Positions 14,494 to 44,298 of a stretch of 63,512 bases of DNA are shown here, piece after piece. The notes under the pieces are model-generated. The model was not told where the DNA came from. It was given only the letters and a program-made list of their open reading frames with translations, and searched no databases. Origin of the DNA: a virus. The stretch lies in the IMG/VR virus record IMGVR_UViG_3300031708_000019, positions 1 through 63,512 of that record. The stretch is one strand, 5' to 3'. Position 1 is the first letter of the stretch. The number at the start of each line of letters is the position of its first letter. The translations under genes were made by a program, and so were the position numbers.

Positions 14494-14984
14494 GTTTCAG
14501 GCCACACCCCAAGAGAGCCCGCACCAACTCGCGATATCCGCAGGCGTGGGCTACGTCCGATTCGTCGGGGTTTGTGGGCAACCACATCGATATGGCCTGG
14601 CAATATGACTACAATGGCACCCAGCTTTTCAACAAACGCATTCTGCGCTTCCGGGACGAACTCGACACCCCGCAGCAGCAGTTTCGCGCGCTTGTGCTGC
14701 CGCCTGATCCGGTGCCGATCATGAACGCGCGGCCGGAACCGTATTCGATTGACGAAGCTGGCCCAGTGACGACGCAAATCACTGTCGATGCCGTGCAGGG
14801 CGATGCAACCCTGTTTGTGCAGGCGGTGACGGGGCTTGCCACCAGTCAGCCGATCATCGTTTACCTGGATAACGGCGGCTTTTGGAGCGTGACAATTACC
14901 GGCCTCGGCGTGGACTCCATCGGTATTTCGGTGCCGCTGCCGTCGTCGTGTTCGGTTAACCAGATCGTGAGCGCGGTTGGATAA
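14490..14984 (+). CDS. Unknown structural protein (164 aa)
   Basis: The start overlaps the GIY-YIG remnant, with aagg 6 bases upstream. The N-terminus is basic and aromatic (MSFRPHPKRARTNSRYPQAW, then GNHIDMAWQYDYNG), followed by RILRFRDELDTPQQQFRALV. A C-terminal strand-rich domain reads DATLFVQAVTGLATSQPIIV and VTITGLGVDSIGIS. It lies between the adaptor candidate and the glycosyltransferase-like gene and its stop overlaps the next start by one base (TAATG). No known family recognised. Confidence 0.65.
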   Translation: MSFRPHPKRARTNSRYPQAWATSDSSGFVGNHIDMAWQYDYNGTQLFNKRILRFRDELDTPQQQFRALVLPPDPVPIMNARPEPYSIDEAGPVTTQITVDAVQGDATLFVQAVTGLATSQPIIVYLDNGGFWSVTITGLGVDSIGISVPLPSSCSVNQIVSAVG

Positions 14985-16066
14985 TGCCGGAATCCAGTCC
15001 CGAAATCCTCGAGATAATCCAGAATTACTGGTATCTGGCAAAAACGCGCCGCTTCGATCACGTCGCCATAACGATGATCGACGCTTCGGACGATACTATC
15101 GCGTGCGCCGATTATGCCGGCATCGTCAGTCTCGAGCGCGCCCAGTACCAAGCCATGAGTGCGCTGCGCAAGCGCCTCGAAAGCTCGATTATGAACTGGA
15201 CGCTGCCAAAGCCAGATCCAAGCCTCGACGGAAGCCATGTGGTCTATAGCGTCGCTCACGATCCGATGTGCTTCGATTATATCGTCTGGCTTGTGAACTG
15301 CGAGATGGCCCGCATTCGCGAGGGTATGCCGGCACCCTTGAAGGTCGGCTTCTGGCTCGGAGCCAATCCGGATGCGGTGAAAGCGGACCCCTACCGGATG
15401 GGGTGGCTGAACAACGTCTTTCGTCCGGCACTGGCGCTCATCGGCGCGGTTGAGCACGACAGGGCAATCTACGGCACGCGGCGAGAGATGTTCGTCACTC
15501 GTAACATCGTGATGGCTTCGCAATTGGGGCAATTGATCCCGCAACTCAAGACGGACACGCGTTCGCGGTTTCCGGGGTATGTGGTTATCACCTTGCGTGA
15601 GGCGGATCACTGGCCGCACCGCAACAGCAATATCGATGCGTGGCGAAAGTTTGCGGCTTACCTTCAGAAGATCGGAGAGAAGGTGGTTTTCATTCGCGAT
15701 ACTGCCAAGGCGGACGAGCCGTTTGAGGATTTCCCGACTTGGCCGGAAGCCTCGCGCGACCTGGACATGAGAATGGCGGCCTATCAGGAGGCCAAGACCA
15801 ACTGGATGATCTCCAATGGGCCGATCGGGCTGTGCGAGTTCAGTTCGGTGCCGTGGGTGCAGTTTGTGCCCGTAGAACGGACAGGCGGCAATTACGAACC
15901 AAACACTGGCTTGTTCTGGAAAGACAGCAATGGCATAAATATCGGCGGCCAATTTCCGTGGTGTCGGCCGGACCAGCGTATTGTCTGGGAGCGCGACAGC
16001 CTCGAAAATCTGATGGCGGCATGGGACGAATATGCCCCGGTTTTGAGGGCGCAAAATGCGGCGTAG
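14984..16066 (+). CDS. Possible GT-B glycosyltransferase-like protein (360 aa)
   Basis: The second half has the look of the nucleotide-sugar-binding half of a GT-B enzyme: a strand GYVVITLREA (about 205-214), then RNSNIDAWRKFAAYLQKIGE, KVVFIRD, and NWMISNGPIGLCEFSSVPWV (a strand-turn-helix where donor binding usually sits). The first half has VAHDPMCFDYIVWLVNCEMA and FWLGANPDA. Such an enzyme could glycosylate a virion protein or host surface. The fold is inferred by eye, and catalytic residues are not identified. A 397-residue antisense frame (14861-16054) is Arg/His/Pro-rich and rejected. Confidence 0.6.
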   Translation: MPESSPEILEIIQNYWYLAKTRRFDHVAITMIDASDDTIACADYAGIVSLERAQYQAMSALRKRLESSIMNWTLPKPDPSLDGSHVVYSVAHDPMCFDYIVWLVNCEMARIREGMPAPLKVGFWLGANPDAVKADPYRMGWLNNVFRPALALIGAVEHDRAIYGTRREMFVTRNIVMASQLGQLIPQLKTDTRSRFPGYVVITLREADHWPHRNSNIDAWRKFAAYLQKIGEKVVFIRDTAKADEPFEDFPTWPEASRDLDMRMAAYQEAKTNWMISNGPIGLCEFSSVPWVQFVPVERTGGNYEPNTGLFWKDSNGINIGGQFPWCRPDQRIVWERDSLENLMAAWDEYAPVLRAQNAA

Positions 16067-16391
16067 CGACGGCGAAAGCTATCTGCTGATAGACCATCGG
16101 GAGAGCCCCGGCTTCACCCCGGATGAATGCGCCAGGGCTGGCGTTCCAACGCACGCGCACGGTATCTTCGCCAAAGGGGTAAAGGCCGAGTTCGGCACCA
16201 AGTCGTGCTCGCACTGCCAGAAGCAAATCGTGCTAAGACCTGAGCGGATCAGACCTCGCCATTTCTGCCCGAAATGTGATAAGTACATCTGCGACAACTG
16301 CAACGTTAATTTTGTTCTAACCCACGAGTGCGTCCCGTTCGCAAAACGGATGGAAGATTATTTGCGCAAGGCTGCGCAGATCAAACTCTAG
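16056..16391 (+). CDS. Zinc-ribbon protein (111 aa)
   Basis: It overlaps the end of the upstream gene by 11 bases, with gaggg before ATG 16056. Cysteines C51/C54 (CSHC), C71/C74 (CPKC), C79/C82 (CDNC) and H90/C92 (HEC) make four metal-binding pairs, enough for two zinc ions in a treble-clef or cross-brace arrangement. The N-terminus (SPGFTPDECARAGVPTHAHG) and the helical C-terminus flank the ribbon. It may bind nucleic acid or a partner protein. No named family. Confidence 0.7.
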   Translation: MRRSDGESYLLIDHRESPGFTPDECARAGVPTHAHGIFAKGVKAEFGTKSCSHCQKQIVLRPERIRPRHFCPKCDKYICDNCNVNFVLTHECVPFAKRMEDYLRKAAQIKL

Positions 16392-16439: not shown

Positions 16440-16955
16440 ATGGCCCGCCGCATCATCTCCTACACCACGATTACGCCTACCGCGTTCGCCGACACGACCA
16501 ACCTGACCAACACGACTTACCCGCTGTTCCTTCAGGGCGGCACCGCGACCCAGCAGAACAAGATCCACGAAATCAGCATCTCCGGGCAGGCGGCATCGTC
16601 GTCGTCACCCACGTTCATGATCCTGTCGCGCGATTCCACGGTGGCGGCATCGTCTATCAGCTTTCCAGCCGATACCGGAATGGATGCCTCAATGGATACG
16701 GCAACCGCTGCCCTTGCCGCGCCTCCTCTTTCGGGCAACGCCGCGACTACGCTGCCGCAGCGTTCGTCCACGCTGCATCTGATGAACTGCTCGCTCAACG
16801 CCTTTGGCGGTGTCTATTTCTGGCGCGCCAACAAATGGGACGAGTGCGTGGACATCGTCGGCAATGCCGCGTCGTTCGGCGAGGTGTCGCTGTCGGCGTT
16901 TACAGGCGGAACGCCTGGGGCTGTCGGCGTGCACCTAATATATGAGAGTTTATAG
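16440..16955 (+). CDS. Beta-rich structural protein (171 aa)
   Basis: gaaagga precedes ATG 16440. The sequence is Ser/Thr/Ala-rich and strand-like, beginning MARRIISYTTITPTAFADTT and including TFMILSRDSTVAASSISFPA. The end forms a compact domain (GGVYFWRANKWDECVDIVGN to VGVHLIYESL). The pattern fits a small tail or capsid surface protein. The 205-residue frame at 16328-16945 offset by one base is a His/Arg-rich shadow. Function unknown. Confidence 0.65.
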   Translation: MARRIISYTTITPTAFADTTNLTNTTYPLFLQGGTATQQNKIHEISISGQAASSSSPTFMILSRDSTVAASSISFPADTGMDASMDTATAALAAPPLSGNAATTLPQRSSTLHLMNCSLNAFGGVYFWRANKWDECVDIVGNAASFGEVSLSAFTGGTPGAVGVHLIYESL

Positions 16956-16985
16956 AACAAAATCAAATACTTAAAGCTAGGTCCA

Positions 16986-17429
16986 ATGGACAAGCCCCGC
17001 TGGCAGCAAATCTACGAGGAATGGAAGGCGCGGAACGACGAGCCGCGCCCTCTTGTTAACAATTCCATCACGCAGGAAATGCGGCAGCGTGCGGTGGAGC
17101 CGGAACAGGTATCGCTGACGCCAGAGCAAAAACTGGCGACGTTGCGCCCCCGCCGGCCACGGAGTGCCGCTGGTGAACTGTGCGCCGATGTTTGTCAGTG
17201 GTGTCTCAATCCGTTCAACTTCACCATGAAGCGATCCGGCAAACCGCGGGATTCGATCGAATACGAGCCGCTGCGCAGGGCGCTCAAGATTACCGATGCA
17301 GCTTTCGATCCGGTGATCTGCGATTCCTGCTACGGACAGGTGATGAAATCCGCCCCGGATGACAGGTTAATGCCTGGCACATCTAACTTTGTCGATGCCG
17401 GGCATAATCTGCTAATACGGACGATATGA
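16986..17429 (+). CDS. Small Cys-cluster protein, likely zinc-binding (147 aa)
   Basis: The product starts MDKPRWQQIYEEWKARNDEP, a Trp-rich helix, followed by a polar linker. Cysteines C66, C70 and C73 (CADVCQWC) and C112/C115 (ICDSC) suggest a zinc-ribbon-like site with about 40 residues between the knuckles. Its stop overlaps the start of the next gene (ATGA). Function is unknown; it is the second ribbon-type protein in this fibre-region cluster. Confidence 0.65.
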   Translation: MDKPRWQQIYEEWKARNDEPRPLVNNSITQEMRQRAVEPEQVSLTPEQKLATLRPRRPRSAAGELCADVCQWCLNPFNFTMKRSGKPRDSIEYEPLRRALKITDAAFDPVICDSCYGQVMKSAPDDRLMPGTSNFVDAGHNLLIRTI

Positions 17430-17596
17430 CCAGTTTGACTCCGCAGAATGCTTTCCCTGGAATACCGTTCCCGTTGCATGTGGCCATTCCTACGTCCGAT
17501 ATATTTACAGGCGCGGTTCAGCCGCAGGGCAATTCTACGGTCTTGACGTTCAAGACAGTGTCGCATTTAGTGTTGGTGCCGATCCCGTTCTTTTGA
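17426..17596 (+). CDS. Small protein with an FPGIP module (56 aa)
   Basis: ATG 17426 overlaps the upstream stop. The sequence MTSLTPQNAFPGIPFPLHVA and TGAVQPQGN reproduces the module found twice in the product at 18935 (NAFPGIPAPQHLAGQ and GAVQPQ). The C-terminal half is strand-like (VLTFKTVSHLVLVPIPFF). The shared module points to duplication among neighbouring genes and perhaps a common binding partner. No known family. Confidence 0.6.
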   Translation: MTSLTPQNAFPGIPFPLHVAIPTSDIFTGAVQPQGNSTVLTFKTVSHLVLVPIPFF

Positions 17597-17617
17597 CAAT
17601 TACGCCGTGAGGGATGA

Positions 17618-18922
17618 ATGACCATAAACGCAACCGCGATCTGGCGCGTTTGCCCGTCTGGCTCGAACACCAACGGCGGCGGCTATGATCCTGGCATCTC
17701 TGGGGCCGCCACGGACTATTCACGGCAGAACGCGGCGCAGGCTACCGGGACGCACGGCACGACGGTCGGGACCACGACGTTCACCGACCTGACGGCGCTC
17801 GCCTTCACGGCGGCGATGATCGGCAACGCGATCTATATCACGGGTACTGGGCAGACGACGGGCTGGTACTTTGTTACGGCGTTCACGAGTTCTTCCATTG
17901 TCACGCTCGACCGCTCGCCTGGAACGGGCACGTTGGCGACGTGGAATTTGGGCGGCGGCTGGGCTGATCCGTGGACCAATCTGACGTCGAGCGGGCCGCT
18001 CGTTCCCGGAAATATTGTTTACGTGCTCGGCAGCGGCACGCCAAATCCGGCTTCCTACACATACGACTACGACACTGGCGGCGACTTTACGCTCACCTCT
18101 GGTAACGATACGGCGGGTTACGTCACCATCGCCAACGATCCATCGACGCCAGGCTACAAAGCGCCGCCCGATACGACTGGCGGAATGCCGTGCATCCGGA
18201 CGGGTGGTCTGGTTTATATCCTTGCGGGCTACAACAAGCTTCAGGGTTTGTTCTTCGTGCTCAACGGCACCTCTGGCAATAACGTCCTTTTTTTCACGTC
18301 CACCAATCCGACTGTTATTACCGGGTGCGTCTGCGACCAGTTCGGAAACGACTGCGGGTTCACGTTCCAGGACGGGACACTTGCGCTGTTTGGCAACGAG
18401 GTGTTCACATCGGTTGCGCCCGGATCGAGTGGTTCGAAGTACGCCATCAACATTGATAGCATCAACACGACGATAATCGGTAACAACATCCACGACACAG
18501 TTGGTCCCGGTATTCTTGCCAACCGTGGCGCGTTTATCGAGGGCAATATCATCGCCAAATGCCGCGGTGTCGGGCTCCTGCTCAGTGACTCGTCGGCGTT
18601 CCCGATTACGGTCGTCAGGGGCAACACGATCGACGGCAATCTGGGTAACGGAATGGAAGTGTCGTCACAGGTCACATTGAGCTACGCCGCTATCCAGAAC
18701 AACAACATCACCAACCACACGCAGAGCGGCACTTATGGCTTCACGGTGGATGCGGGGACGGCAGCAGCGAATAGTCTGGTGGCGTTGCTGTTTGACAACC
18801 AGGTCTGGCAGGGCAACACCACCGACGTTAACGCGATCAACAAGGGTCCGCACGACACTACTCCACCGTCGTCGCCCTCAATTTACGTCAATCAATCGAC
18901 CGAAAATTATACGCTGGCCTAG
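17618..18922 (+). CDS. Tailspike-like right-handed beta-helix protein (434 aa)
   Basis: gaggga precedes ATG 17618. After an N-terminal Gly/Thr-rich domain (IWRVCPSGSNTNGGGYDPGI), the product shows regular beta-helix rungs: GYVTIANDPSTPGYKAP, KLQGLFFVLNGTSGNNVLFF, TTIIGNNIHDTVGPGILANR, GAFIEGNIIAKCRGVGLLLS, FPITVVRGNTIDGNLGNGME and AIQNNNITNH. The Asn/Gly-rich turns and Ile/Val ladders match parallel beta-helix proteins of the tailspike/pectate-lyase type, which bind or cut host surface glycans. No catalytic site is assigned. Confidence 0.75.
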   Translation: MTINATAIWRVCPSGSNTNGGGYDPGISGAATDYSRQNAAQATGTHGTTVGTTTFTDLTALAFTAAMIGNAIYITGTGQTTGWYFVTAFTSSSIVTLDRSPGTGTLATWNLGGGWADPWTNLTSSGPLVPGNIVYVLGSGTPNPASYTYDYDTGGDFTLTSGNDTAGYVTIANDPSTPGYKAPPDTTGGMPCIRTGGLVYILAGYNKLQGLFFVLNGTSGNNVLFFTSTNPTVITGCVCDQFGNDCGFTFQDGTLALFGNEVFTSVAPGSSGSKYAINIDSINTTIIGNNIHDTVGPGILANRGAFIEGNIIAKCRGVGLLLSDSSAFPITVVRGNTIDGNLGNGMEVSSQVTLSYAAIQNNNITNHTQSGTYGFTVDAGTAAANSLVALLFDNQVWQGNTTDVNAINKGPHDTTPPSSPSIYVNQSTENYTLA

Positions 18923-18934
18923 CAGGATGATCGA

Positions 18935-19213
18935 ATGCCGAGCGTTCTGCAGCCGTCCAACGCCTTTCCCGGCATCCCTGCTCCGCAGCACTTGGCGGGG
19001 CAGAGCTCCGTTCAGAGCTACCAGTATCCAGGCGCGGTTCAGCCGCAGTCCACAAAACCTGTCGTGCTGACCTACACGGATGGTTTTCCAGGTATCCCAG
19101 CGCCCAATCATTTATCTGGACAATCGCATCCACAAAATTACATCTTTCCGGGCGGTCTACAGCCGCAACTTGCTTCGGGACTGCCGCCAGGGACAAACAT
19201 GATCTTCATGTGA
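18935..19213 (+). CDS. FPGIP-repeat protein (92 aa)
   Basis: The product holds two copies, 40 residues apart, of a module FPGIPAP-(Q/N)-HL-(A/S)-GQS at residues 11-24 and 51-64, each followed about 8 residues later by a YPGAVQPQ/FPGGLQPQ element. A third version occurs in the 17426 gene. The protein is Pro/Gln/Ser-rich and lacks a hydrophobic core, so it may be an extended linker or binding peptide. Its stop lies one base before the LWRYD-repeat gene. No known family. Confidence 0.6.
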   Translation: MPSVLQPSNAFPGIPAPQHLAGQSSVQSYQYPGAVQPQSTKPVVLTYTDGFPGIPAPNHLSGQSHPQNYIFPGGLQPQLASGLPPGTNMIFM

Positions 19214-19214
19214 C

Positions 19215-20600
19215 ATGCCTCAATTTTTTACCCCGAGCCCGCACGATTACTACGACGACGTATGGCAGTGGCGTGCGCAACGGGGCGTGCTGTCGATCCT
19301 CACGGCGCAAAAGCCCAAGAACAAGCAACTCTGGCGCTATGATCTAGATACCGATGTGCGGGTGTGGACTCCGCTGATCGACAATCTCAATTCGTCGGGG
19401 GTTCTTACGCCGCTGACTTCAGGCGGACGGCCGAAAAACAAACAACTATGGCGTTATGACCCGGTTCCTGATCCGCCGTGGCAGGCTCCTCCATGGATGC
19501 TGAGCAACGCGGATACGGCAAACCTTCCGACCAAGACAAATCCATTCTTCAGGCTGTGGCGGTATGATCTCGACACTGACGTTAAGGCTTGGGCACCTCC
19601 GAAACTGGGTTCCTACGCGGCTTCCTATGCGTCCAACTACGTCATGCGAGCGCCCTTCTATACGCAGCGCGGGGCCGAATTTCCGCCGTGGCAGTTCCCC
19701 AATTTCTGGGAAAATGCCGACGCGCTGTATCTGCCAAAGCCTACGGTTTCTGTCCTCCAGCAGCATAATTTCTGGAAGGCGCAGTATCTCTATGACCCGC
19801 CGCCGTGGGTGGGTACGCCGCAAAGTTCGTTGGCGTTGTTCGAGCTGGTCGAGGGCGGCACGCCGTTCAACAAGCTTTGGCGCTGGGATTTTGTCGAGCA
19901 GCCAGGTTGGTATTGGCAAGGTACAAAGGCGAATGTCCTGTTTGATTTTGTGGCTGGCGGAGAACCATTCTCGAAACTCTGGCGCTGGGATAACGTGCCG
20001 CAGCCTGATTGGCTGGGAAGCCCGTATGGTATCTCACAGCCGCTGCGCAATGTTACGCCAACGCCGTTCTATAAACTCTGGCGCTATGATTTAGACAGCG
20101 ACGTTAGAGTCTGGAACGCTCGGCCGACAGGGGCCACACAGAACCAACTCGCGGCCAAGACAAATCCATTCTTTAGGCTGTGGCGATGGGACAACGTTCC
20201 AGATTCAGTGTGGGTCGGCACACCAATTCCGGGATACACGCTCACTCAGCCGACACCGTCGCAGAACCCGTTTTTCAATACCAGACAGTTCAACTACGTG
20301 TCTCAACCGGAGTGGGTCGGAAGCCCCTCGGGATCGCTATCAGTCAGACTACCTCCCGCCGTTACGCCGAAGCCATTCCATCAGTTATGGCGCTACGACT
20401 ACGTCCCGGCCAGCGAATGGGTCGGTCATCAAGTCGGCTCTGCGGTCATCTTCCTGCCGCCGCAGGTCGCCAATCAACTCTTACGCAATGTCATTCTGCG
20501 AACGCGGGAACTGGTCAACGAAATCGAGCGCGAGCGGGAATTGCGTAATGTCATTCTCAGGTCGCGAGTCTTGGTCTTCGGCGGCCCTACCTATCATTAG
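19215..20600 (+). CDS. Tryptophan-rich LWRYD-repeat protein (461 aa)
   Basis: The protein is built from about 11 units spaced 33-40 residues apart. The signature is P-F-x2-L-W-R-(Y/W)-D-x5-(V/W), often followed by W-V-G-(T/S)-P. Clear LWR cores lie at residues 39, 78, 114, 221, 255, 288, 322 and 391. Degenerate units sit near 149, 189 and 356. Three units carry DLD(T/S)DV(R/K) and five carry (V/E)-P/Q-x-W. The end has two LRNVILR copies within a charged helix (425-449). It lacks transmembrane or catalytic motifs. The gene lies in the fibre cluster, so a surface or fibre-associated role is plausible. I know of no named family with this repeat. Confidence 0.7.
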   Translation: MPQFFTPSPHDYYDDVWQWRAQRGVLSILTAQKPKNKQLWRYDLDTDVRVWTPLIDNLNSSGVLTPLTSGGRPKNKQLWRYDPVPDPPWQAPPWMLSNADTANLPTKTNPFFRLWRYDLDTDVKAWAPPKLGSYAASYASNYVMRAPFYTQRGAEFPPWQFPNFWENADALYLPKPTVSVLQQHNFWKAQYLYDPPPWVGTPQSSLALFELVEGGTPFNKLWRWDFVEQPGWYWQGTKANVLFDFVAGGEPFSKLWRWDNVPQPDWLGSPYGISQPLRNVTPTPFYKLWRYDLDSDVRVWNARPTGATQNQLAAKTNPFFRLWRWDNVPDSVWVGTPIPGYTLTQPTPSQNPFFNTRQFNYVSQPEWVGSPSGSLSVRLPPAVTPKPFHQLWRYDYVPASEWVGHQVGSAVIFLPPQVANQLLRNVILRTRELVNEIERERELRNVILRSRVLVFGGPTYH

Positions 20601-20608
20601 GATAAGCA

Positions 20609-21748
20609 ATGGCTACTTTCTTTTGGGTCGGCGGCGCGGGGACGTGGGACAACTCCAGCACGGGAAACTGGTCAACGTCATCTGGTGGGTCAAGCGGAGC
20701 TGGGCCGCCGACATCGAGCGACACGGCGAAGATTGACGGGAATTCCGGGTCTACTTTCAATATCACCATAGCGGCCAGCACTACGGTGACGTGTGAGGTT
20801 CTGGATTGGACTGGGACAAACGGAAACTTTGTCGGCTTCCAGGCTGGATCGGGCGCGATCCAGGTTGGCAATGGCACCACTGGTCAGATAAAGGGCAACG
20901 GCCTAATCGGAAGTAACGTTAGCTGGACCATCAACGGCTCCGTGACGATCACTGGTGGCGATAATTACGGTAGCTCGTCGTGGGCGTTTTCCGGTTCAGG
21001 TGATACGTTCATTATCGGAGACCTTGCGAATTACGGGCTTATTTTCCCCGATATCCCATCGGGCTGCGAGATAAATGTAAACGGCAACCAACTCAACCTG
21101 TCCAACGCTACGACGCTGGAAGGCACCATTGTCCTCAATGGCGGCACCATATACTTCTCCAGTCCGTTCAGTATCGACAACCGCTCTGGCACACTTACGG
21201 TTGATACGGGCACTGTCGAATTTTCGAATGGGTTCTCCAACCCTGGCAACTTTGGCGTACCGGGCACCTTCAGTGCAGCGAGCGGGACCGTCGTATTAGC
21301 TGGCGGCACCGGCGCTTTCGGCGGCGCCACGATTGGGACTTTTATCGTTGGTGGCACCTGCACCATCACTGGCAACAACAGCTACGGGACATTCTCCTGT
21401 CCGGCCGCTGCGGGGTATGCTGAAAATTTGTTTCAGCCGCTCGGCAATGTCACAATAACGCTTGGCGCCAGTTCGACGCAGACTATTACAACGGCAAGTG
21501 GGCTTTCCCTTCTGGGCAACGTCTCTAATGTCATCACGATCAATAGTTCATCGCCCGGAACGCAGGCCAATTTCTCGATGGCGTCGGGCACTTGCACCGG
21601 CGCTTACCTGTCATTGAAGGACAACAACGCAACGGGGGGTGCCACGTTCAACCCCGGCACCGGCTCCGTCCTGCTTAGCGATGTTACCGGATGGACCGTC
21701 GCCGCCGCCACCACGCCGCTTCCGGTGCAGACTTTGATTGTCATGTGA
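20609..21748 (+). CDS. Gly/Ser/Thr-rich beta-solenoid protein, spike or fibre-like (379 aa)
   Basis: An aggat site precedes ATG 20609. The N-terminus MATFFWVGGAGTWDNSSTGN, then WSTSSGGSSGAGPPTSSDTA, is a common opening of phage and autotransporter-like solenoid proteins. Repeating strand-turn units follow: ITGGDNYGSSSWAFSGSGDT, LSNATTLEGTIVLNGGTIYF, TLTVDTGTVEFSNGFSN, TVVLAGGTGAFGGATIGTFI and VITINSSSPGTQANFSM. The low charge and Asn/Gly/Thr turns fit a parallel beta-solenoid. It is probably displayed on the virion; the target is unknown. Confidence 0.7.
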   Translation: MATFFWVGGAGTWDNSSTGNWSTSSGGSSGAGPPTSSDTAKIDGNSGSTFNITIAASTTVTCEVLDWTGTNGNFVGFQAGSGAIQVGNGTTGQIKGNGLIGSNVSWTINGSVTITGGDNYGSSSWAFSGSGDTFIIGDLANYGLIFPDIPSGCEINVNGNQLNLSNATTLEGTIVLNGGTIYFSSPFSIDNRSGTLTVDTGTVEFSNGFSNPGNFGVPGTFSAASGTVVLAGGTGAFGGATIGTFIVGGTCTITGNNSYGTFSCPAAAGYAENLFQPLGNVTITLGASSTQTITTASGLSLLGNVSNVITINSSSPGTQANFSMASGTCTGAYLSLKDNNATGGATFNPGTGSVLLSDVTGWTVAAATTPLPVQTLIVM

Positions 21749-21810: not shown

Positions 21811-22125
21811 ATTTTTATAGGTCGCGAATTTGATCCAGCAGACGCGGGGGAAAGTCAGGTCTTTGGCTATGACTACACCAACGACCTCGCGCCTAGCGAT
21901 ACGATTTCATCGGTGACGACTGTAAATCTGACAGTACAGGTCGGCGTTGACCCGAGCCCTGGATCGCATCTCGTCGGGGCGCCAACTCTTACGTCCCCGA
22001 TCGTTGTCCAGCGGGTTTCGAATCTCGTGGCAGGCGTGACATACATCCTGCAGATCATTGTTGCGACGGCGGGAGGCGACACGCTTAGTCTCTATTCCCG
22101 CATTCCCTGTCGTCCAATCTATTAG
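21811..22125 (+). CDS. Small phage protein with a non-canonical start (104 aa)
   Basis: The conserved-looking N-terminus FIGREFDPADAGESQVFGYD and YTNDLAPSDTISS lies upstream of the first standard start (GTG 21913), so translation must begin earlier. The frame is closed by TAA at 21778-21780, and between there and 21913 it holds no ATG, GTG or TTG. GGAGG at 21800-21804 is followed six bases later by ATT 21811 (ATC at 21808 is also in frame), so ATT or ATC is the likely start. The rest is strand-like (TTVNLTVQVGVDPSPG to DTLSLYSRIPCRPIY). An indel is the alternative. Confidence 0.6.
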   Translation: MFIGREFDPADAGESQVFGYDYTNDLAPSDTISSVTTVNLTVQVGVDPSPGSHLVGAPTLTSPIVVQRVSNLVAGVTYILQIIVATAGGDTLSLYSRIPCRPIY

Positions 22126-22134
22126 GGCGCGCAA

Positions 22135-22884
22135 ATGGATTACCAGGAATTTGTCTTTATCGCCCAGAAAATCCTCAAATACGAGGCGACCGACACGACG
22201 TTTACCGACATGCTGCCGCGCATGATCGAGTACACCGAGGAACGAATCTACATTGACTTTGATTTTCTCTGCACGCTGACATCCCAGACCGCGTTGATGA
22301 CAGCCTCTAACCGGAACGTGACACTGCCGTCTAATATCATCGTCGCGCAATCGCTCAATGCGATCACACCGTTCACGGCCGCAAGCCCCGATCTCGGAAC
22401 GCGTAATCCGCTGACCCGCGTTGGCGTCGAATACATCAACGCGCTCTACCCAGATTCGACCAGTGCGGGGTTGCCTGTATATTACGCGATCATCGGGCTA
22501 CCAACCCTCACGCCTGTAATTACAGCGGGATCATACAACATCCTTCTGGGGCCGTTTCCCGATCAAGCCTACCCGCTGGAAACCATCGGAACGGTGCGGC
22601 CCGCGCCGCTATCGCCGACCAACACGACGACATTCATTGCGACGTATCTGCCGCATCTGTACGTGGCGGGCGCGATGGTGTTCGGCTTTGGCTATCAGCG
22701 CGACTTTGGTGCCCAGAGCGATGCTACCGGGACTGCCCAATCGTGGGAAGCTCAATACAACTCGCTTAAAGCCGGGGCCAACGTCGAGCAATTGCGCGCC
22801 AAGGCCGCTTCGGTGAGCTGGTCGCCATACCAGCCAACGCCCACCGCAAACGTATCAGGGGATCACGCGAGTGCCCCTGCATAG
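22135..22884 (+). CDS. Head-tail adaptor-like protein, second copy (249 aa)
   Basis: It starts MDYQEFVFIAQKILKYEATD, then DMLPRMIEYTEERIYIDFDF, a typical helical N-terminus of podovirus adaptor proteins. A strand-rich middle includes ASNRNVTLPSNIIVAQSLNA and TPVITAGSYNILLGPFPD. A C-terminal helix (SWEAQYNSLKAGANVEQLRA) carries a short tail. The layout matches that of the 13715 protein. These proteins join the portal to the tail. It overlaps the next gene by 14 bases. The function is inferred from architecture and its position before the hub candidate. Confidence 0.6.
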   Translation: MDYQEFVFIAQKILKYEATDTTFTDMLPRMIEYTEERIYIDFDFLCTLTSQTALMTASNRNVTLPSNIIVAQSLNAITPFTAASPDLGTRNPLTRVGVEYINALYPDSTSAGLPVYYAIIGLPTLTPVITAGSYNILLGPFPDQAYPLETIGTVRPAPLSPTNTTTFIATYLPHLYVAGAMVFGFGYQRDFGAQSDATGTAQSWEAQYNSLKAGANVEQLRAKAASVSWSPYQPTPTANVSGDHASAPA

Positions 22885-24910
22885 GTTGGAATGGACAGCC
22901 GGATTCAATAGCCAAGCCACCCAGACGAAGAATCGTCAGGGCTGGTTTGCTGGCAACCTGGTGCGCTGGCGCTACGGCTTGCTGGAAAAGGTCGCGGGCT
23001 GGCAACAGCTATTTTCGCAGACCGCCGCAGGGATCGTCCGCGCTCTGCACGCCTACGAGGATTTGCTGACCAACGTCAATCTCCTGATCGGCGGCGATGG
23101 CGGCGCGCAAATCTATGTGGGCGGTACGCTCTATACATTTGCGTTTAATCTCGGAACCGGAGACCCAGGCAACTTCACGGTTTCGGTCAACAGCGGAACC
23201 AAGCAGGTTACGGTTATGCAGGGCAATTTCGGTAATCTCCAGATCGGAAACGAGATCGAGATACTTTGCACGATGTCGATTGGTGGAGAGATTTTGACTC
23301 CCGGAACGATACTCCTTGTGACTGGCGTTGTGCCGTTCACGTCATTCACGTTCAACTTGCCCGTCAATGCATCAACGACGCAGACTAATGTTATTCCGAC
23401 CCCTCAGTTTCAGAACCAAGCATACCCGACAATCAACGTTACATTGATAAATCACGGATTGATTACGGGGAACACGTTTACCTTCGACATCACTACTGAT
23501 GTTAATGTCCAGATCGAGGCCCTGTTTACGTTCTTGAATATTCCGGCGGGCAGCACGGCAACCATCACGAAGATCGACAACGACACATTCTCGTTTAACG
23601 CAACGCCGTTCGGGTCGTTCAATACGGTCAATGCCTTGTATTCTGAGGGCCTCATTGATACTGGCGACGGTGACAGTTATTCTCCCAGCTTTGCTTATGT
23701 CGGCCTAGCGCCGTCGCCTTCCCCTGCGGCGTGGTTTCTCGACAATCTCGGAACAAACGGGATCGTCAGCTACACCAATGGACCAATTTATATTTACACG
23801 CCGCCGATTGGGACCGGAGCGGTCCTCAATAATGCCGGCGTTCCCGATCCGACGATTACCGGCAGCGGCACTCCGCAGATCAATGCTGGCGTTTTTGTCG
23901 CCATGCCGCAGGCGCAGGTTATCGCTTTCGGCTCGGAAGTCATTCTCGGCGGCGGTCAACAAGACCCGTTGCTTGTCCGTTTTTCCGATGCCGGAAGCTA
24001 TAATTCATGGACGGCAACGGTTTCAAATCAGGCCGGTAGTTTTCATCTTGGCGGCTCTGGGACCAAAATCGTTGGCGGCTTCCAGGTTCCCCAGACGACG
24101 CTGCTGTGGACGAATAACGATCTGTGGTCGATGCTTTATGTCGGGCCGCCGTTCATCTACAGCTTCACAGTTATTGGTTCGCAATGCGGATTGATCGCGC
24201 CCCATGCTTTTGCCCTCATCGGGCGCACAACGTGGTGGGTGACACTCAACTCAGTCTTTAACTTTTCGGACAGCGGTATTACGCCGATCGAATGTCCGCT
24301 TTGGGATGTCATGTTCACGGATCTTGATACGGCCAATCAGGAAAAGATTTTCCTCGGTGCGAGCCAGTCATCGAACGAGGTCTGGATATTCTATCCGTCG
24401 ATCTCCGGGGGCACGGGAGAGTGCGACAAATATCTTAAGGTCAATATTCTTGAAAACTTATGGGACTACGGCTCGCTCGAGCGGAGCGCGTGGCTTCCCG
24501 AGAATGCCTTCGGTCTGCCGCTCGGTGCTGAGACGAGTACGCTTCTGATCCAGCAGCATGAAGTCGGTTATGACGCTAACGGCCAGCCGATGACAGGCGT
24601 CTATGCCGAGACAGGCTATGCGGATGTAGGCGACGGTGAGCAGATACTCTTTGTGGACGAGTACATCAACGACATGAAATGGTTTGGCAGCGAGGGTGCT
24701 GTCTCTCTGACGCTCTACGGTGTCAACTACCCCGGCGATAGCCCGTTTGTGAAAGGGCCTTACGGGCTGGATTCGAAGAACCGTTATATCCGGCCTGAGC
24801 TCCGTTGCCGACAGATAGCGTTGCGGCTTGACTGGGCGGCACGCACTGGGTTTTCAGCACGGCTTGGAACACCGCGGGTGCGCGCGATTCCGGCGGGGTC
24901 GCGGCCGTGA
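22871..24910 (+). CDS. Large tail hub / gp10-like protein (679 aa)
   Basis: It begins at GTG 22871 inside the upstream gene. The N-terminus (WTAGFNSQATQTKNRQGWFA, then NLVRWRYGLLEKVAGWQQLF) resembles the opening of P22 gp10/T7 gp12-type tail proteins. These carry a beta-propeller-like body and close the tail channel. An inserted strand-rich domain occupies about residues 95-260. The body then shows propeller-like blades with WFLDNLG, WTNNDLWSMLYVGPPFIYSF, RTTWWVTLNSVFNFSDSG and EVWIFYPSISGG. The end (DWAARTGFSARLGTPRVRAI) is also typical. A tail hub or nozzle is the best reading, inferred without a search. Confidence 0.68.
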   Translation: MPLHRLEWTAGFNSQATQTKNRQGWFAGNLVRWRYGLLEKVAGWQQLFSQTAAGIVRALHAYEDLLTNVNLLIGGDGGAQIYVGGTLYTFAFNLGTGDPGNFTVSVNSGTKQVTVMQGNFGNLQIGNEIEILCTMSIGGEILTPGTILLVTGVVPFTSFTFNLPVNASTTQTNVIPTPQFQNQAYPTINVTLINHGLITGNTFTFDITTDVNVQIEALFTFLNIPAGSTATITKIDNDTFSFNATPFGSFNTVNALYSEGLIDTGDGDSYSPSFAYVGLAPSPSPAAWFLDNLGTNGIVSYTNGPIYIYTPPIGTGAVLNNAGVPDPTITGSGTPQINAGVFVAMPQAQVIAFGSEVILGGGQQDPLLVRFSDAGSYNSWTATVSNQAGSFHLGGSGTKIVGGFQVPQTTLLWTNNDLWSMLYVGPPFIYSFTVIGSQCGLIAPHAFALIGRTTWWVTLNSVFNFSDSGITPIECPLWDVMFTDLDTANQEKIFLGASQSSNEVWIFYPSISGGTGECDKYLKVNILENLWDYGSLERSAWLPENAFGLPLGAETSTLLIQQHEVGYDANGQPMTGVYAETGYADVGDGEQILFVDEYINDMKWFGSEGAVSLTLYGVNYPGDSPFVKGPYGLDSKNRYIRPELRCRQIALRLDWAARTGFSARLGTPRVRAIPAGSRP

Positions 24911-30200: not shown

Positions 30201-30989
30201 CTCGATCCTATCAAACAGCAGGTACTTGGTGCGAACGGAGAACCCTACGTTCCGGAAACTGGTCAGGGGACCAAGGCGATTGCCACAGCCATCGAAACCG
30301 GAATACAGCCGCCGACAACGGCCGGTCTGTACCGGAACGCGTCAGCCGTGCGCGCCCAGTTGGCCAAGGATGGCTTTGATCTGACGAGCGCCAATCTCGA
30401 ATACGAAGCGGCCCATAAGCAGGTTTTGTCGCTCAACGGCCCGCAGATGGTTCGCTATTCAGGGTTGGCGCATAGCGTTCTCAATACGATTGATGAAACA
30501 AACAGTCTTGCGGGGCAGATGCAGAATACCGGAGTGCCCCTGTTCAACCAGGCGCGGCTGCAGGCATACATTCAAACAGCCGGCAATTCAGCGAATGGAC
30601 AACTTGCGGCCAAGTATCTGGCGTCGGTTAACACCCTGAAAGAGGAATTTGCCAACCTGGCTCAAGGCGGATACGCGCCAACGGAAGCGGCATGGGGCCT
30701 CGCCAACCAACAAATCAATGGCAATTACGGCGTGAAGGAATTGGGCGCGAGTCTGAACGAGGTTCAACGCTTGTTGCGCTATCGCCTCCAAGGCATTCCA
30801 AACATGGGAACGCTCGGGCCTGGGGCAGCCAATCGTTATACCGGGCAGAGCGGCAACCAACCGACCGTTGGCGAGCAGACTAGCGCGCCTGCCGCGTCGT
30901 CGCAGGATCAGCAGGCGCTGTCTTGGGCTAAGGCCAACCCAAATGACCCGCGCTCGGCCGCCATCCTTAAGAAACTAGGCGTGCAGTAA
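27285..30989 (+). CDS. Large internal/ejection protein with lytic transglycosylase domain (1234 aa)
   Basis: The N-terminal third is Ala/Gly/Ser-rich and low-complexity, with two 7-residue repeat tracts. At about 670-790 lies a lysozyme-like transglycosylase domain: catalytic E682 in YGQESGYGRN, then GAVGPMQIEPATFAKY, DNKAVGDRILADYTDKYGDP and AAVAYYSGPGNV. It would cut peptidoglycan when DNA is ejected. From about 880 to 1234 it is Gln/Ala-rich and helical (KADIALKQKTLEQGR, NTLKEEFANLAQGG). Large podovirus ejection proteins have similar build. The stop overlaps the next start by one base (TAATG). Confidence 0.82.
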   Translation: MGSLCAPSTNTATTSSSPPPQVLQNYQNIVNQAQGVSNTLSSAPGPPVAGITPEQSAGISTVNAAAGPQTQADYNMGTQAMGTGLGTVASGLSYLPSEISGIAGAQEGVAGAQSIIAGAQSMLPTAEGYVSSAAPDYAAGASAVGESEVNPITSGGISAYMNPYTQDVVNSTEAAFNNQNAIQANQLTGSAILGGNAFGGDRAGVAQAALAGQQQTAEAPVIAGLESSGYTSAVQEAEQQQQLEQSGASIYGSLGAGLGSLGSITGGLASTAGGLASTAGGLASTAGGLAGMYGTAASTAGSLGATQAGIGSQEVAAGSSLASTLLGTGTAEETAGATQQATQQAQLNSEYQQYLNSIGVTGTSFLAPIVEGTGSLSGGTSTTTSAGPSTLSQLSGVALGGLGLLGVTGAFGANGYLTGSSGASSGGTSTGGRINYDDGGSVDDDQLDFGTSGSPAPQQQQPGLGGIVGYDALARELSQGIAANQLGAAQGGFDGGGGVVAPAGAQPLPGLASLPTGASSNSGIIGPMGMNVPRGSGPPGIHMGMGPPQPPRAAASDNDLANITKQITQVAGLMRQPGNSRTQAMGGQDAGGQATGGRVFPGIVAQGYADGGAPDQDYTAVDPGIGGVSGAAADVPNAPDVTVNGTPQAIVPADALPQNATPDAGTASPGLAALQNATYGQESGYGRNTGTSSAGAVGPMQIEPATFAKYAQPGERIDNPTDNKAVGDRILADYTDKYGDPARAAVAYYSGPGNVAPADSPTPWKHDISHDRNGNPIKPVSSYVSDVMGRMGGAPPSGSQPSSGAAPGTPGITAANPSSLDIGKPNPWESVLASGLGMMAGQSPHALSNIGAGGLAGLQNYQEQQAELRAEATTKQGAQRLTNEASYQQQQMNVQTAELALRQQQSKADIALKQKTLEQGRIPPGYTMQNGQLIPLPGGPADPVAVRQLKEAGVLPKAQVLKNSDNSEQVVWLDPIKQQVLGANGEPYVPETGQGTKAIATAIETGIQPPTTAGLYRNASAVRAQLAKDGFDLTSANLEYEAAHKQVLSLNGPQMVRYSGLAHSVLNTIDETNSLAGQMQNTGVPLFNQARLQAYIQTAGNSANGQLAAKYLASVNTLKEEFANLAQGGYAPTEAAWGLANQQINGNYGVKELGASLNEVQRLLRYRLQGIPNMGTLGPGAANRYTGQSGNQPTVGEQTSAPAASSQDQQALSWAKANPNDPRSAAILKKLGVQ
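27591..27653 (+). repeat. 21-bp tandem repeat, 3 copies, inside the transglycosylase gene
   Basis: Three units beginning gccggcgcgcag at 27591, 27612 and 27633 encode AGAQEGV, AGAQSII and AGAQSML. The copy number may vary between relatives by slippage. The 7-residue period would suit a helix or coiled coil. Confidence 0.8.
28083..28154 (+). repeat. 21-bp tandem repeat, 3.4 copies, inside the transglycosylase gene
   Basis: Units starting at 28083, 28104 and 28125, plus a partial at 28146, encode GLASTAG three times and then GLA. The last two full copies are identical; the first differs only by ggcttg instead of ggtctc, which are synonymous. Recent duplication is likely. The tract lies in the Gly/Ala-rich N-terminal part of the protein. 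Confidence 0.85.
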
Positions 30990-31756
30990 TGGCTGATTTT
31001 GATCCAGACGCCTACCTGTCTGGCGGCGATGGAAGTTCTGCGGCGTTTGACCCGGATGCTTATCTGGGAAATACCAAGCCGTCCTTGGTAGAAGCTGCCA
31101 CCAAGCCGATCACTGACATCCCGTCCGTTTACTCCGATACCGTGAACCAATCGGTCTCACAGATGGGGCGGGGAGTTGGTCAGTTAGAGAGTGGCGACCC
31201 GTGGACCATGACGAAGGGCGCGGGCAATGTCGCCTTGGGCGGCCTCGGTTACGTCACTGCGCCGATAAATGCGCCGTTGCAAAGCATCGTTGGCAATCCT
31301 GTCAGGGACGCCGCATCGTATGCTGGGCTTAGTCCGACCGCGAGTCAGCTTGCCGGGAATCTGGCAACGGCCGGAGCCGGTTTTTTTCTGCCGCTGCCAG
31401 GAGCCGGCACTCTAGCCAGAACCGCCAAACTGCCAGAGGTTGATCCTGCATTTGGCTTGCCCTTGACCGCAGGCGAGGCCGCGCAGAGTCCCGCTATGGT
31501 TCGCGCAGAGCAGCAGGCCATTCGGCAGGGCAAGCAATATGCTGCCGACTTTTCTGCAGATCGGACACAACGGCTTGGAGATGTGCAGGAACAAGTCACC
31601 GGGGGAATGGGGCCATCCGGCTGGAAGCCGCCGGCCACTCCGCAACAGGCCGGAGAAACGGTTTCCGCTCGCGTGCAACAAGCGGCAGCAACCAAGAAGG
31701 CCGCCGTCACGGAATATTATAACGTTGCGAAGGCATTTCCAGGCGAGATAGACGCC
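30989..31756 (+). CDS. N-terminal part of an ejection-type protein, truncated at the axis (256 codons)
   Basis: ATG 30989 overlaps the upstream stop by one base. The N-terminus has a duplicated FDPDAYL motif (residues 4-10 and 20-26), seen at the start of very large internal proteins in several podoviruses. Then follow Gly/Ala-rich stretches (WTMTKGAGNVALGGLGYVTA) and a helical part ending KKAAVTEYYNVAKAFPGEID. The frame runs exactly to codon 256 at base 31756, where the sequence turns into its own antisense; translation past this point (to 32101) is artificial. The missing part may be large. Confidence 0.7.
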
Positions 31757-31772
31757 GGCGTCTATCTCGCCT
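31741..31772. other. Axis of symmetry (fold-back junction)
   Basis: The two arms meet between 31756 and 31757 within the self-complementary 12-mer gacgccggcgtc. There is no unique loop or spacer. The axis falls exactly at the end of codon 256 of an open gene, so that gene runs into its own antisense strand. Missing-adapter reads, template fold-back or palindromic assembly can produce this pattern. A covalently closed hairpin end also would, but such ends are not expected inside a gene. Confidence 0.95.
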
Positions 31773-32524
31773 GGAAATGCCTTCGCAACGTTATAATATT
31801 CCGTGACGGCGGCCTTCTTGGTTGCTGCCGCTTGTTGCACGCGAGCGGAAACCGTTTCTCCGGCCTGTTGCGGAGTGGCCGGCGGCTTCCAGCCGGATGG
31901 CCCCATTCCCCCGGTGACTTGTTCCTGCACATCTCCAAGCCGTTGTGTCCGATCTGCAGAAAAGTCGGCAGCATATTGCTTGCCCTGCCGAATGGCCTGC
32001 TGCTCTGCGCGAACCATAGCGGGACTCTGCGCGGCCTCGCCTGCGGTCAAGGGCAAGCCAAATGCAGGATCAACCTCTGGCAGTTTGGCGGTTCTGGCTA
32101 GAGTGCCGGCTCCTGGCAGCGGCAGAAAAAAACCGGCTCCGGCCGTTGCCAGATTCCCGGCAAGCTGACTCGCGGTCGGACTAAGCCCAGCATACGATGC
32201 GGCGTCCCTGACAGGATTGCCAACGATGCTTTGCAACGGCGCATTTATCGGCGCAGTGACGTAACCGAGGCCGCCCAAGGCGACATTGCCCGCGCCCTTC
32301 GTCATGGTCCACGGGTCGCCACTCTCTAACTGACCAACTCCCCGCCCCATCTGTGAGACCGATTGGTTCACGGTATCGGAGTAAACGGACGGGATGTCAG
32401 TGATCGGCTTGGTGGCAGCTTCTACCAAGGACGGCTTGGTATTTCCCAGATAAGCATCCGGGTCAAACGCCGCAGAACTTCCATCGCCGCCAGACAGGTA
32501 GGCGTCTGGATCAAAATCAGCCAT
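31757..32524 (-). CDS. Truncated ejection-type protein, second-arm copy
   Basis: Mirror of the gene at 30989-31756, with the same duplicated FDPDAYL start. It is cut at the axis from the other side; the apparent extension on the minus strand down to 31412 is antisense of the left copy. Confidence 0.68.
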
Positions 32525-42912: not shown

Positions 42913-44298
42913 CTAATGATAGGTAGGGCCGCCGAAGACCAAGACTCGCGACCTGAGAATGACATTACGCAATTCCCGCTCGCGCTCGATTTCGTTGACC
43001 AGTTCCCGCGTTCGCAGAATGACATTGCGTAAGAGTTGATTGGCGACCTGCGGCGGCAGGAAGATGACCGCAGAGCCGACTTGATGACCGACCCATTCGC
43101 TGGCCGGGACGTAGTCGTAGCGCCATAACTGATGGAATGGCTTCGGCGTAACGGCGGGAGGTAGTCTGACTGATAGCGATCCCGAGGGGCTTCCGACCCA
43201 CTCCGGTTGAGACACGTAGTTGAACTGTCTGGTATTGAAAAACGGGTTCTGCGACGGTGTCGGCTGAGTGAGCGTGTATCCCGGAATTGGTGTGCCGACC
43301 CACACTGAATCTGGAACGTTGTCCCATCGCCACAGCCTAAAGAATGGATTTGTCTTGGCCGCGAGTTGGTTCTGTGTGGCCCCTGTCGGCCGAGCGTTCC
43401 AGACTCTAACGTCGCTGTCTAAATCATAGCGCCAGAGTTTATAGAACGGCGTTGGCGTAACATTGCGCAGCGGCTGTGAGATACCATACGGGCTTCCCAG
43501 CCAATCAGGCTGCGGCACGTTATCCCAGCGCCAGAGTTTCGAGAATGGTTCTCCGCCAGCCACAAAATCAAACAGGACATTCGCCTTTGTACCTTGCCAA
43601 TACCAACCTGGCTGCTCGACAAAATCCCAGCGCCAAAGCTTGTTGAACGGCGTGCCGCCCTCGACCAGCTCGAACAACGCCAACGAACTTTGCGGCGTAC
43701 CCACCCACGGCGGCGGGTCATAGAGATACTGCGCCTTCCAGAAATTATGCTGCTGGAGGACAGAAACCGTAGGCTTTGGCAGATACAGCGCGTCGGCATT
43801 TTCCCAGAAATTGGGGAACTGCCACGGCGGAAATTCGGCCCCGCGCTGCGTATAGAAGGGCGCTCGCATGACGTAGTTGGACGCATAGGAAGCCGCGTAG
43901 GAACCCAGTTTCGGAGGTGCCCAAGCCTTAACGTCAGTGTCGAGATCATACCGCCACAGCCTGAAGAATGGATTTGTCTTGGTCGGAAGGTTTGCCGTAT
44001 CCGCGTTGCTCAGCATCCATGGAGGAGCCTGCCACGGCGGATCAGGAACCGGGTCATAACGCCATAGTTGTTTGTTTTTCGGCCGTCCGCCTGAAGTCAG
44101 CGGCGTAAGAACCCCCGACGAATTGAGATTGTCGATCAGCGGAGTCCACACCCGCACATCGGTATCTAGATCATAGCGCCAGAGTTGCTTGTTCTTGGGC
44201 TTTTGCGCCGTGAGGATCGACAGCACGCCCCGTTGCGCACGCCACTGCCATACGTCGTCGTAGTAATCGTGCGGGCTCGGGGTAAAAAATTGAGGCAT
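42913..44298 (-). CDS. LWRYD-repeat protein, second-arm copy
   Basis: Identical to the 461-residue product of 19215-20600, with all repeat units retained. Confidence 0.68.
   Translation of the reverse strand: MPQFFTPSPHDYYDDVWQWRAQRGVLSILTAQKPKNKQLWRYDLDTDVRVWTPLIDNLNSSGVLTPLTSGGRPKNKQLWRYDPVPDPPWQAPPWMLSNADTANLPTKTNPFFRLWRYDLDTDVKAWAPPKLGSYAASYASNYVMRAPFYTQRGAEFPPWQFPNFWENADALYLPKPTVSVLQQHNFWKAQYLYDPPPWVGTPQSSLALFELVEGGTPFNKLWRWDFVEQPGWYWQGTKANVLFDFVAGGEPFSKLWRWDNVPQPDWLGSPYGISQPLRNVTPTPFYKLWRYDLDSDVRVWNARPTGATQNQLAAKTNPFFRLWRWDNVPDSVWVGTPIPGYTLTQPTPSQNPFFNTRQFNYVSQPEWVGSPSGSLSVRLPPAVTPKPFHQLWRYDYVPASEWVGHQVGSAVIFLPPQVANQLLRNVILRTRELVNEIERERELRNVILRSRVLVFGGPTYH

Follow-up and report, generated by a model that had tools for sequence, protein, structure and literature searches.

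Among described repeat proteins, the array considered here comes locally closest to the kelch/beta-propeller class (i.e., Kelch_3, PF13415), in which units span ~50 aa and carry a GG doublet; the four-stranded blades of ring-type folds span ~44–56 aa. Among described phage proteins, the nearest are Gly_rich_2 (PF21722) tail-fibre proteins and the Mu Gp48 baseplate wedge (PF10076), domains that are fused to such arrays in loci L009 and L087 and thus share their place in the virion; the array region itself matches neither domain. Phage receptor-binding proteins mostly attach by their N-terminus. The array was found within the window, by which is meant the whole 63,512-nt stretch of DNA that was analysed (IMG/VR record IMGVR_UViG_3300031708_000019, positions 1–63512). 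Its segment LWRYDLDTDVRVW is locally like the kelch ...YDLDTNTW strand, but this was a lone fragment scoring 18.4 bits, under the Pfam gathering cut-off of 22, and no stretch was significant alone. The units, at 32–41 aa, are shorter than those of kelch, lack the GG doublet, and were not predicted to form a propeller. Nor do they resemble four-stranded ring blades, since units across the family measure 27–43 aa and AlphaFold2 (at low confidence) gave no strands. A weak local match to phrog_8622, of unknown function, covered residues 31–56 (E=0.0019); it was one fragment without a repeat, below reliable threshold, and the other arrays did not match.

The array protein (19215–20600, + strand; 461 aa from an ATG start; supported by its ORF, a unit HMM and selection) consists of LWRYD units rich in Trp and Pro, about 11 in tandem, and contains 6.1% Trp and 11.7% Pro. 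LWR cores occur at residues 39, 78, 114, 221, 255, 288, 322 and 391, and degenerate units at residues ~159, 187–198 and 358–367. The protein begins with a conserved N-terminal cap unit (19215–19313, +; F-x-x-P-x-P...DDVWQW...ILTAQK) common to most family members, as compared by eye with L074, L078, L034, L033, L093, L102 and L107; the array N-terminus (F-x-x-P-x-P...W...ILTAQK) is a family signature in itself. Within the repeat region (19314–20486, +) the second conserved Trp of each unit falls at residues 51, 89, 126, (159), 198, 232, 266, 300, 333, 367 and 402, a spacing of 33–38 aa apart from one 72-aa gap that contains a degenerate unit, and Trp autocorrelation was highest at lag 34, followed by 67. 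The C-terminal tail (LLRNVILRTRELVNEIERERELRNVILRSRVL; 20487–20597, +) is not part of the repeats and is ~90% identical in record G003 (RELVNEIERERELRNVI), the closest relative.

An HMM built solely from arrays of other viruses, with the window protein and its closest relative L028 left out, scored 85.2 bits on the window protein and 127 bits on L028; the best of 972 shuffled copies of the window protein reached 9.5 bits. The preliminary description had reported ~11 Trp-rich LWRYD units at regular spacing, and both points are confirmed by these scores and by the Trp periodicity. We define the LWRYD family by a held-out profile match, at least 4 tandem units and the invariant second Trp; the window protein belongs to it by its profile match and 11 units. 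Compared with its homologue in G003, the array gene gave pN 0.28, pS 0.77 and 128/86/218 substitutions across the three codon positions; the two genes differ by whole units gained or lost, and the non-repeat tail is nearly invariant. From this substitution pattern the ORF is a real gene under purifying selection.

The window itself consists of two 31,756-bp arms forming a perfect inverted duplication (0 mismatches) centred at 31756/31757, so that an exact mirror copy of the array gene, overlooked in the preliminary description, lies at 42913–44298 (− strand), and ORFs spanning the centre (e.g., 30989–32101) are chimeric. As the source record is an IMG/VR virus contig, the palindrome is probably an assembly artefact; the second array copy is then no evidence for duplication, and it and the centre-crossing ORFs are to be disregarded. 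A probably artefactual palindrome could raise the suspicion of a spurious ORF or a low-complexity frame, but this was ruled out, and its likelihood made negligible, by the purifying selection, by homologous arrays in ~20 independent contigs, and by 85 bits under the held-out HMM against at most 9.5 for shuffles. No tRNA and no Rfam family were detected.

About 20 uncultivated phages carry homologous arrays. Searching IMG/VR with alignments of the units and with degenerate DNA patterns spanning two units, we recovered L010/L028/L035 (record G003), L029, L033, L034, L021/L039, L019, L018/L032, L003 and L009 (which share a contig), L008, L074 and L078. Unit counts ranged from 4 to ~20 per array, with spacing of 27–43 aa (mostly 32–35; N-terminal units 41–43). 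Trp, Tyr, Arg and Asp are conserved in most units, and the linkers are variable. Across 37 aligned three-unit segments the second Trp was invariant, but as this residue had helped to select the segments, independent evidence comes from the co-conserved P-F, W-R and W-x-G-x-P.

The array gave nothing at curated cut-offs in Pfam, PHROGs v4 or NCBIfam, and no match to PDB sequences, to 50,697 INPHARED phage records (tblastn), or in a literature search on its motifs. Neither the window protein nor its gp10-like neighbour gave a match when back-translated and searched as exact 8-mers. Samples of 385 alphaproteobacterial, 369 gammaproteobacterial and 297 acidobacterial genomes held no credible match, and all 15 pattern matches in genome contigs were judged by HMM to be chance. 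Two weak array-like matches in bacterial genomes (L079 and L118, in G825 and G114) contain in-frame stops, and may be chance or decayed prophage remnants. A profile built from the units, a step suggested earlier, detected arrays in IMG/VR; the initial statement that no described family has this signature holds across Pfam, PHROGs, NCBIfam, PDB and the 50,697 phage records, leaving only the sub-threshold Kelch_3 and phrog_8622 fragments. Among the records searched, the LWRYD family appears to be known only from phages of environmental DNA.

Array-bearing phages differ in their virion genes: a P22-like gp10 in the window and G003, a siphoviral Ig-like major tail protein in L029, T7-type tail or portal proteins in L033 and L039, and a Mu-like baseplate in L009. 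Nine of them nevertheless share, upstream of the array, a 171-aa protein (54–86% identity) and a Cys-rich protein. In the window the 171-aa protein (MARRI...NAFGGVYFWRAN...) lies at 16440–16955 (+) and is 54–86% identical among otherwise unrelated phages; it had no family or structure match, a PDB/fold search giving one match at E=0.78. At 38 IMG/VR loci (L080–L117) this protein (MARRI...LNAFGGVYFWRAN) is the marker of a mobile cassette. A refined HMM, which gave no match at E<0.001 on 1,147 control ORFs, detected an LWRYD array at 18 of 39 marker loci, the window included; the L091 and L099 arrays had passed an earlier HMM, and that of L107 is clear by eye. Comparison of these loci places the array in a mobile cassette marked by the 171-aa protein, and establishes LWRYD arrays, at the level of sequence, as a new repeat family that has spread horizontally and lies among the virion genes of very different phages.

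Other cassette members in the window (all +) include a zinc-finger-like Cys-rich 111-aa protein (16056–16391; IDHRESPGFTPxxA) and a CxxC protein (16986–17429) with homologues in 5 other contigs. A 360-aa protein at 14984–16066, 45–72% identical in G003, L034 and L039, is GT-B glycosyltransferase-like by eye (without a Pfam or NCBIfam match) and could modify virion proteins. A 434-aa protein (17618–18922) is a probable beta-helix spike by eye, without a family match. The array had been placed between FPGIP-module and spike-like genes, as is indeed the case: 5' of it is a 92-aa FPGIPAP-module protein (18935–19213) whose stop codon adjoins the array start, and 3' of it a 379-aa beta-rich spike-like protein (20609–21748). 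Then follow an 88-aa Ig/FN3-like protein (21859–22125, GTG start), a phrog_2941 virion structural protein (22135–22884; E=8e-6), and a phrog_3287 virion structural protein, the P22 gp10-like stabilisation protein (22871–24910). In relatives with known genes, the position corresponding to the array slot, between tail-adaptor genes and the gp10-like gene, is occupied by a tail-fibre gene. In the variable slot of the window's spike-like genes, L035 has at 16491–17813 a 441-aa protein that is glycoside hydrolase-like by eye.

Diverged "MAKR" marker loci, a second lineage of the cassette, carry in the slot after the marker gene a sister array of WPNP/WPxP units instead. YDWPNP arrays (YDWPNP / DWPLP...LRTWL...LIGQDxIYGAPGQVP) were located at L104:6546–9083, L106:2487–3662, L113:6560–8056 and L114:8287–9531, and degenerate WPNP/WPxP arrays in L103 and L098. 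Like LWRYD arrays, they are built of Trp/Pro-rich units, and the two share a segment, LLxQxxFFGA(P/x)GQVP (hhalign E=1.7e-6), and a C-terminal domain; however, their core is WPNP and LRTW rather than LWRYD, a wider profile comparison (A6 vs A8) was not significant, and the short shared segment alone is no proof of whole-unit homology. The WPNP arrays and the divergent marker found no match among phages by tblastn, although controls matched; these arrays, too, are absent from the libraries searched.

Several arrays are fused to domains of the adsorption apparatus. In L009/L014 (from two samples) a single ORF comprises Gly_rich_2, 4 units and Phage_Mu_Gp48; L087 joins Gly_rich_2, array and an Ig-like domain; L104 joins a Gly-rich region, the WPNP array and a C-terminal domain as in L087; and in L032 a beta-rich domain is fused N-terminally to the array. 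In the window and L035 the Ig-like domain has a gene of its own, located downstream of the array, whereas in L087 it is fused to the array C-terminus (E=5e-5). L037 (IMGVR_UViG_3300041955_000038) carries a stand-alone LWRYD array as well as a different one that is fused between Gly_rich_2 and Mu Gp48.

Stand-alone proteins around arrays bear a short hydrophobic C-terminal tag (~QxLIFM/QxLIMM; e.g., LPPGTNMIFM, LPVQTLIVM, PPGTQMIFM, GAQPMIMM, NTQQLMFM). In the window it ends the 92-aa FPGIPAP protein (LPPGTNMIFM, 19181–19210) and the 379-aa spike-like protein (LPVQTLIVM, 21719–21745), and elsewhere it occurs on fibre, lectin and spike-like proteins unrelated to each other, in L035, L081, L083, L085, L087, L089–L093, L099–L101, L105 and L117. 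ORFs ending in Met numbered 24 of 282 within 5 kb of the marker and 1 of 108 beyond that distance (p=0.0045), a count that missed the window's tagged 92-aa protein because the ORF caller overlooked its gene; about 21 of the 24 fit the hydrophobic pattern and about 3 do not. Tag-like ends were seen on Gly-rich, Laminin_G_3 and beta-rich proteins, the tagged lectin neighbour matching Laminin_G_3 at E=8e-22; beta-rich tagged proteins beyond the Gly-rich and LamG families formed no cluster among themselves. In MAKR-type cassettes, tags of the form LMGQxxL apparently replace QxLIFM/QxLIMM (L096, L106, L112, L114). Stand-alone members of the Gly-rich family stop 6–15 aa past the domain, most with a tag, and fused members continue into the array at that point; within this one family, as aligned, tag and array take the same position after the domain.

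We examined what the array might do for the virion. Its slot in the window lineage, and the fusions to tail and fibre domains in relatives, point to the adsorption apparatus, and the virion-surface role first proposed for it gains support from the tail-fibre slot, the lectin and fibre neighbours or fusions, and the baseplate fusion. The reading we place first, while giving it a little less than an even chance, takes the array to be a virion-surface scaffold or stalk of multiple units, probably extended in shape, that bears adhesin domains. It would attach adhesin, fibre or tail domains to the virion, either fused or docked; an unfused domain would plug its C-terminal hydrophobic tag into a groove of the Trp/Pro-rich units, so that one adhesin or more could be displayed in several copies, and unit number would set length or valency. 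Such a contact between tag and array, resembling cohesin-dockerin-type display, we infer from the fusions and the co-occurrence; alternatively, the partner of the tag could be the 171-aa protein or another site on the virion. A scaffold accommodates the Ig-like domain that is unfused in the window and L035 and fused in L087, the Gly_rich_2, Mu Gp48, Ig-like and beta-rich fusions, the tag that takes the place of the array in the Gly-rich family, the excess of Met-ending ORFs near the marker, the tail-fibre slot, the lectin neighbour, and the occurrence of the array in unrelated virion types. Against it, the adhesin domain lies N-terminal to the array, unlike the arrangement in most phage receptor-binding proteins, and about 3 of the 24 Met-ending proteins depart from the tag pattern.

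The main rival to a scaffold is that the array itself binds the receptor, its units being aromatic carbohydrate-binding elements (a Trp/Tyr platform with Arg/Asp) of a multivalent lectin-like fibre, and its neighbours independent. The Trp, Tyr, Arg and Asp conserved in most units amid variable linkers, the lectin-type neighbours, and the gain and loss of units between relatives would agree with this; but no similarity to carbohydrate-binding modules was found in Pfam or PDB, and the fusions make the array a connector between an adhesin domain and the baseplate or an Ig domain, and we regard it as unlikely, though a serious contender. The single-ORF fusions to Mu gp48 and Gly_rich_2 also speak against a protein outside the virion, i.e., a chaperone for assembly or folding, or a factor in superinfection or defence whose gene lies among the structural genes; such a role is decidedly improbable, even if the cassette moves between unrelated phages and includes the Cys-rich protein and a possible glycosyltransferase as well. 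As to its fold, one unit per repeat in blades or a solenoid had been suggested. The regular spacing (32–35 aa) and the Kelch_3 fragment would favour a beta-propeller or solenoid; however, AlphaFold2 predicted no strands and almost no helix for either 5 units (16 alignment rows, pLDDT 43.2) or 3 units (37 rows, pLDDT 62.8), with an array pTM of 0.15–0.16, a negative that is weak because the alignments were shallow and only monomers were folded. Foldseek with the predicted array models found no match, and no fixed ring fits unit lengths of 27–43 aa and counts of 4 to ~20. The suggestion was thus not upheld, and a propeller or solenoid is considered very improbable. The models would fit a Pro-rich chain that is extended, or that needs an oligomeric state or a partner in order to fold.

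Current annotation reads the whole cassette as hypothetical, because neither it nor the repeat family, both recurrent in environmental phages, is present in Pfam, PHROGs, NCBIfam or the records of cultured phages. A broader possibility, which we hold to be rather doubtful, is a display system independent of virion type, in which the units would accept the tags of exchangeable lectin, fibre and spike proteins, and which would travel, together with a strongly conserved 171-aa adaptor, as a mobile cassette between phages of podo-, sipho- and myovirus-like type. If scaffold and tag function as proposed, the cassette would be a plug-in way to swap receptor-binding domains in unrelated phages, and tag and array would provide testable markers for adhesins in metagenomic phages.
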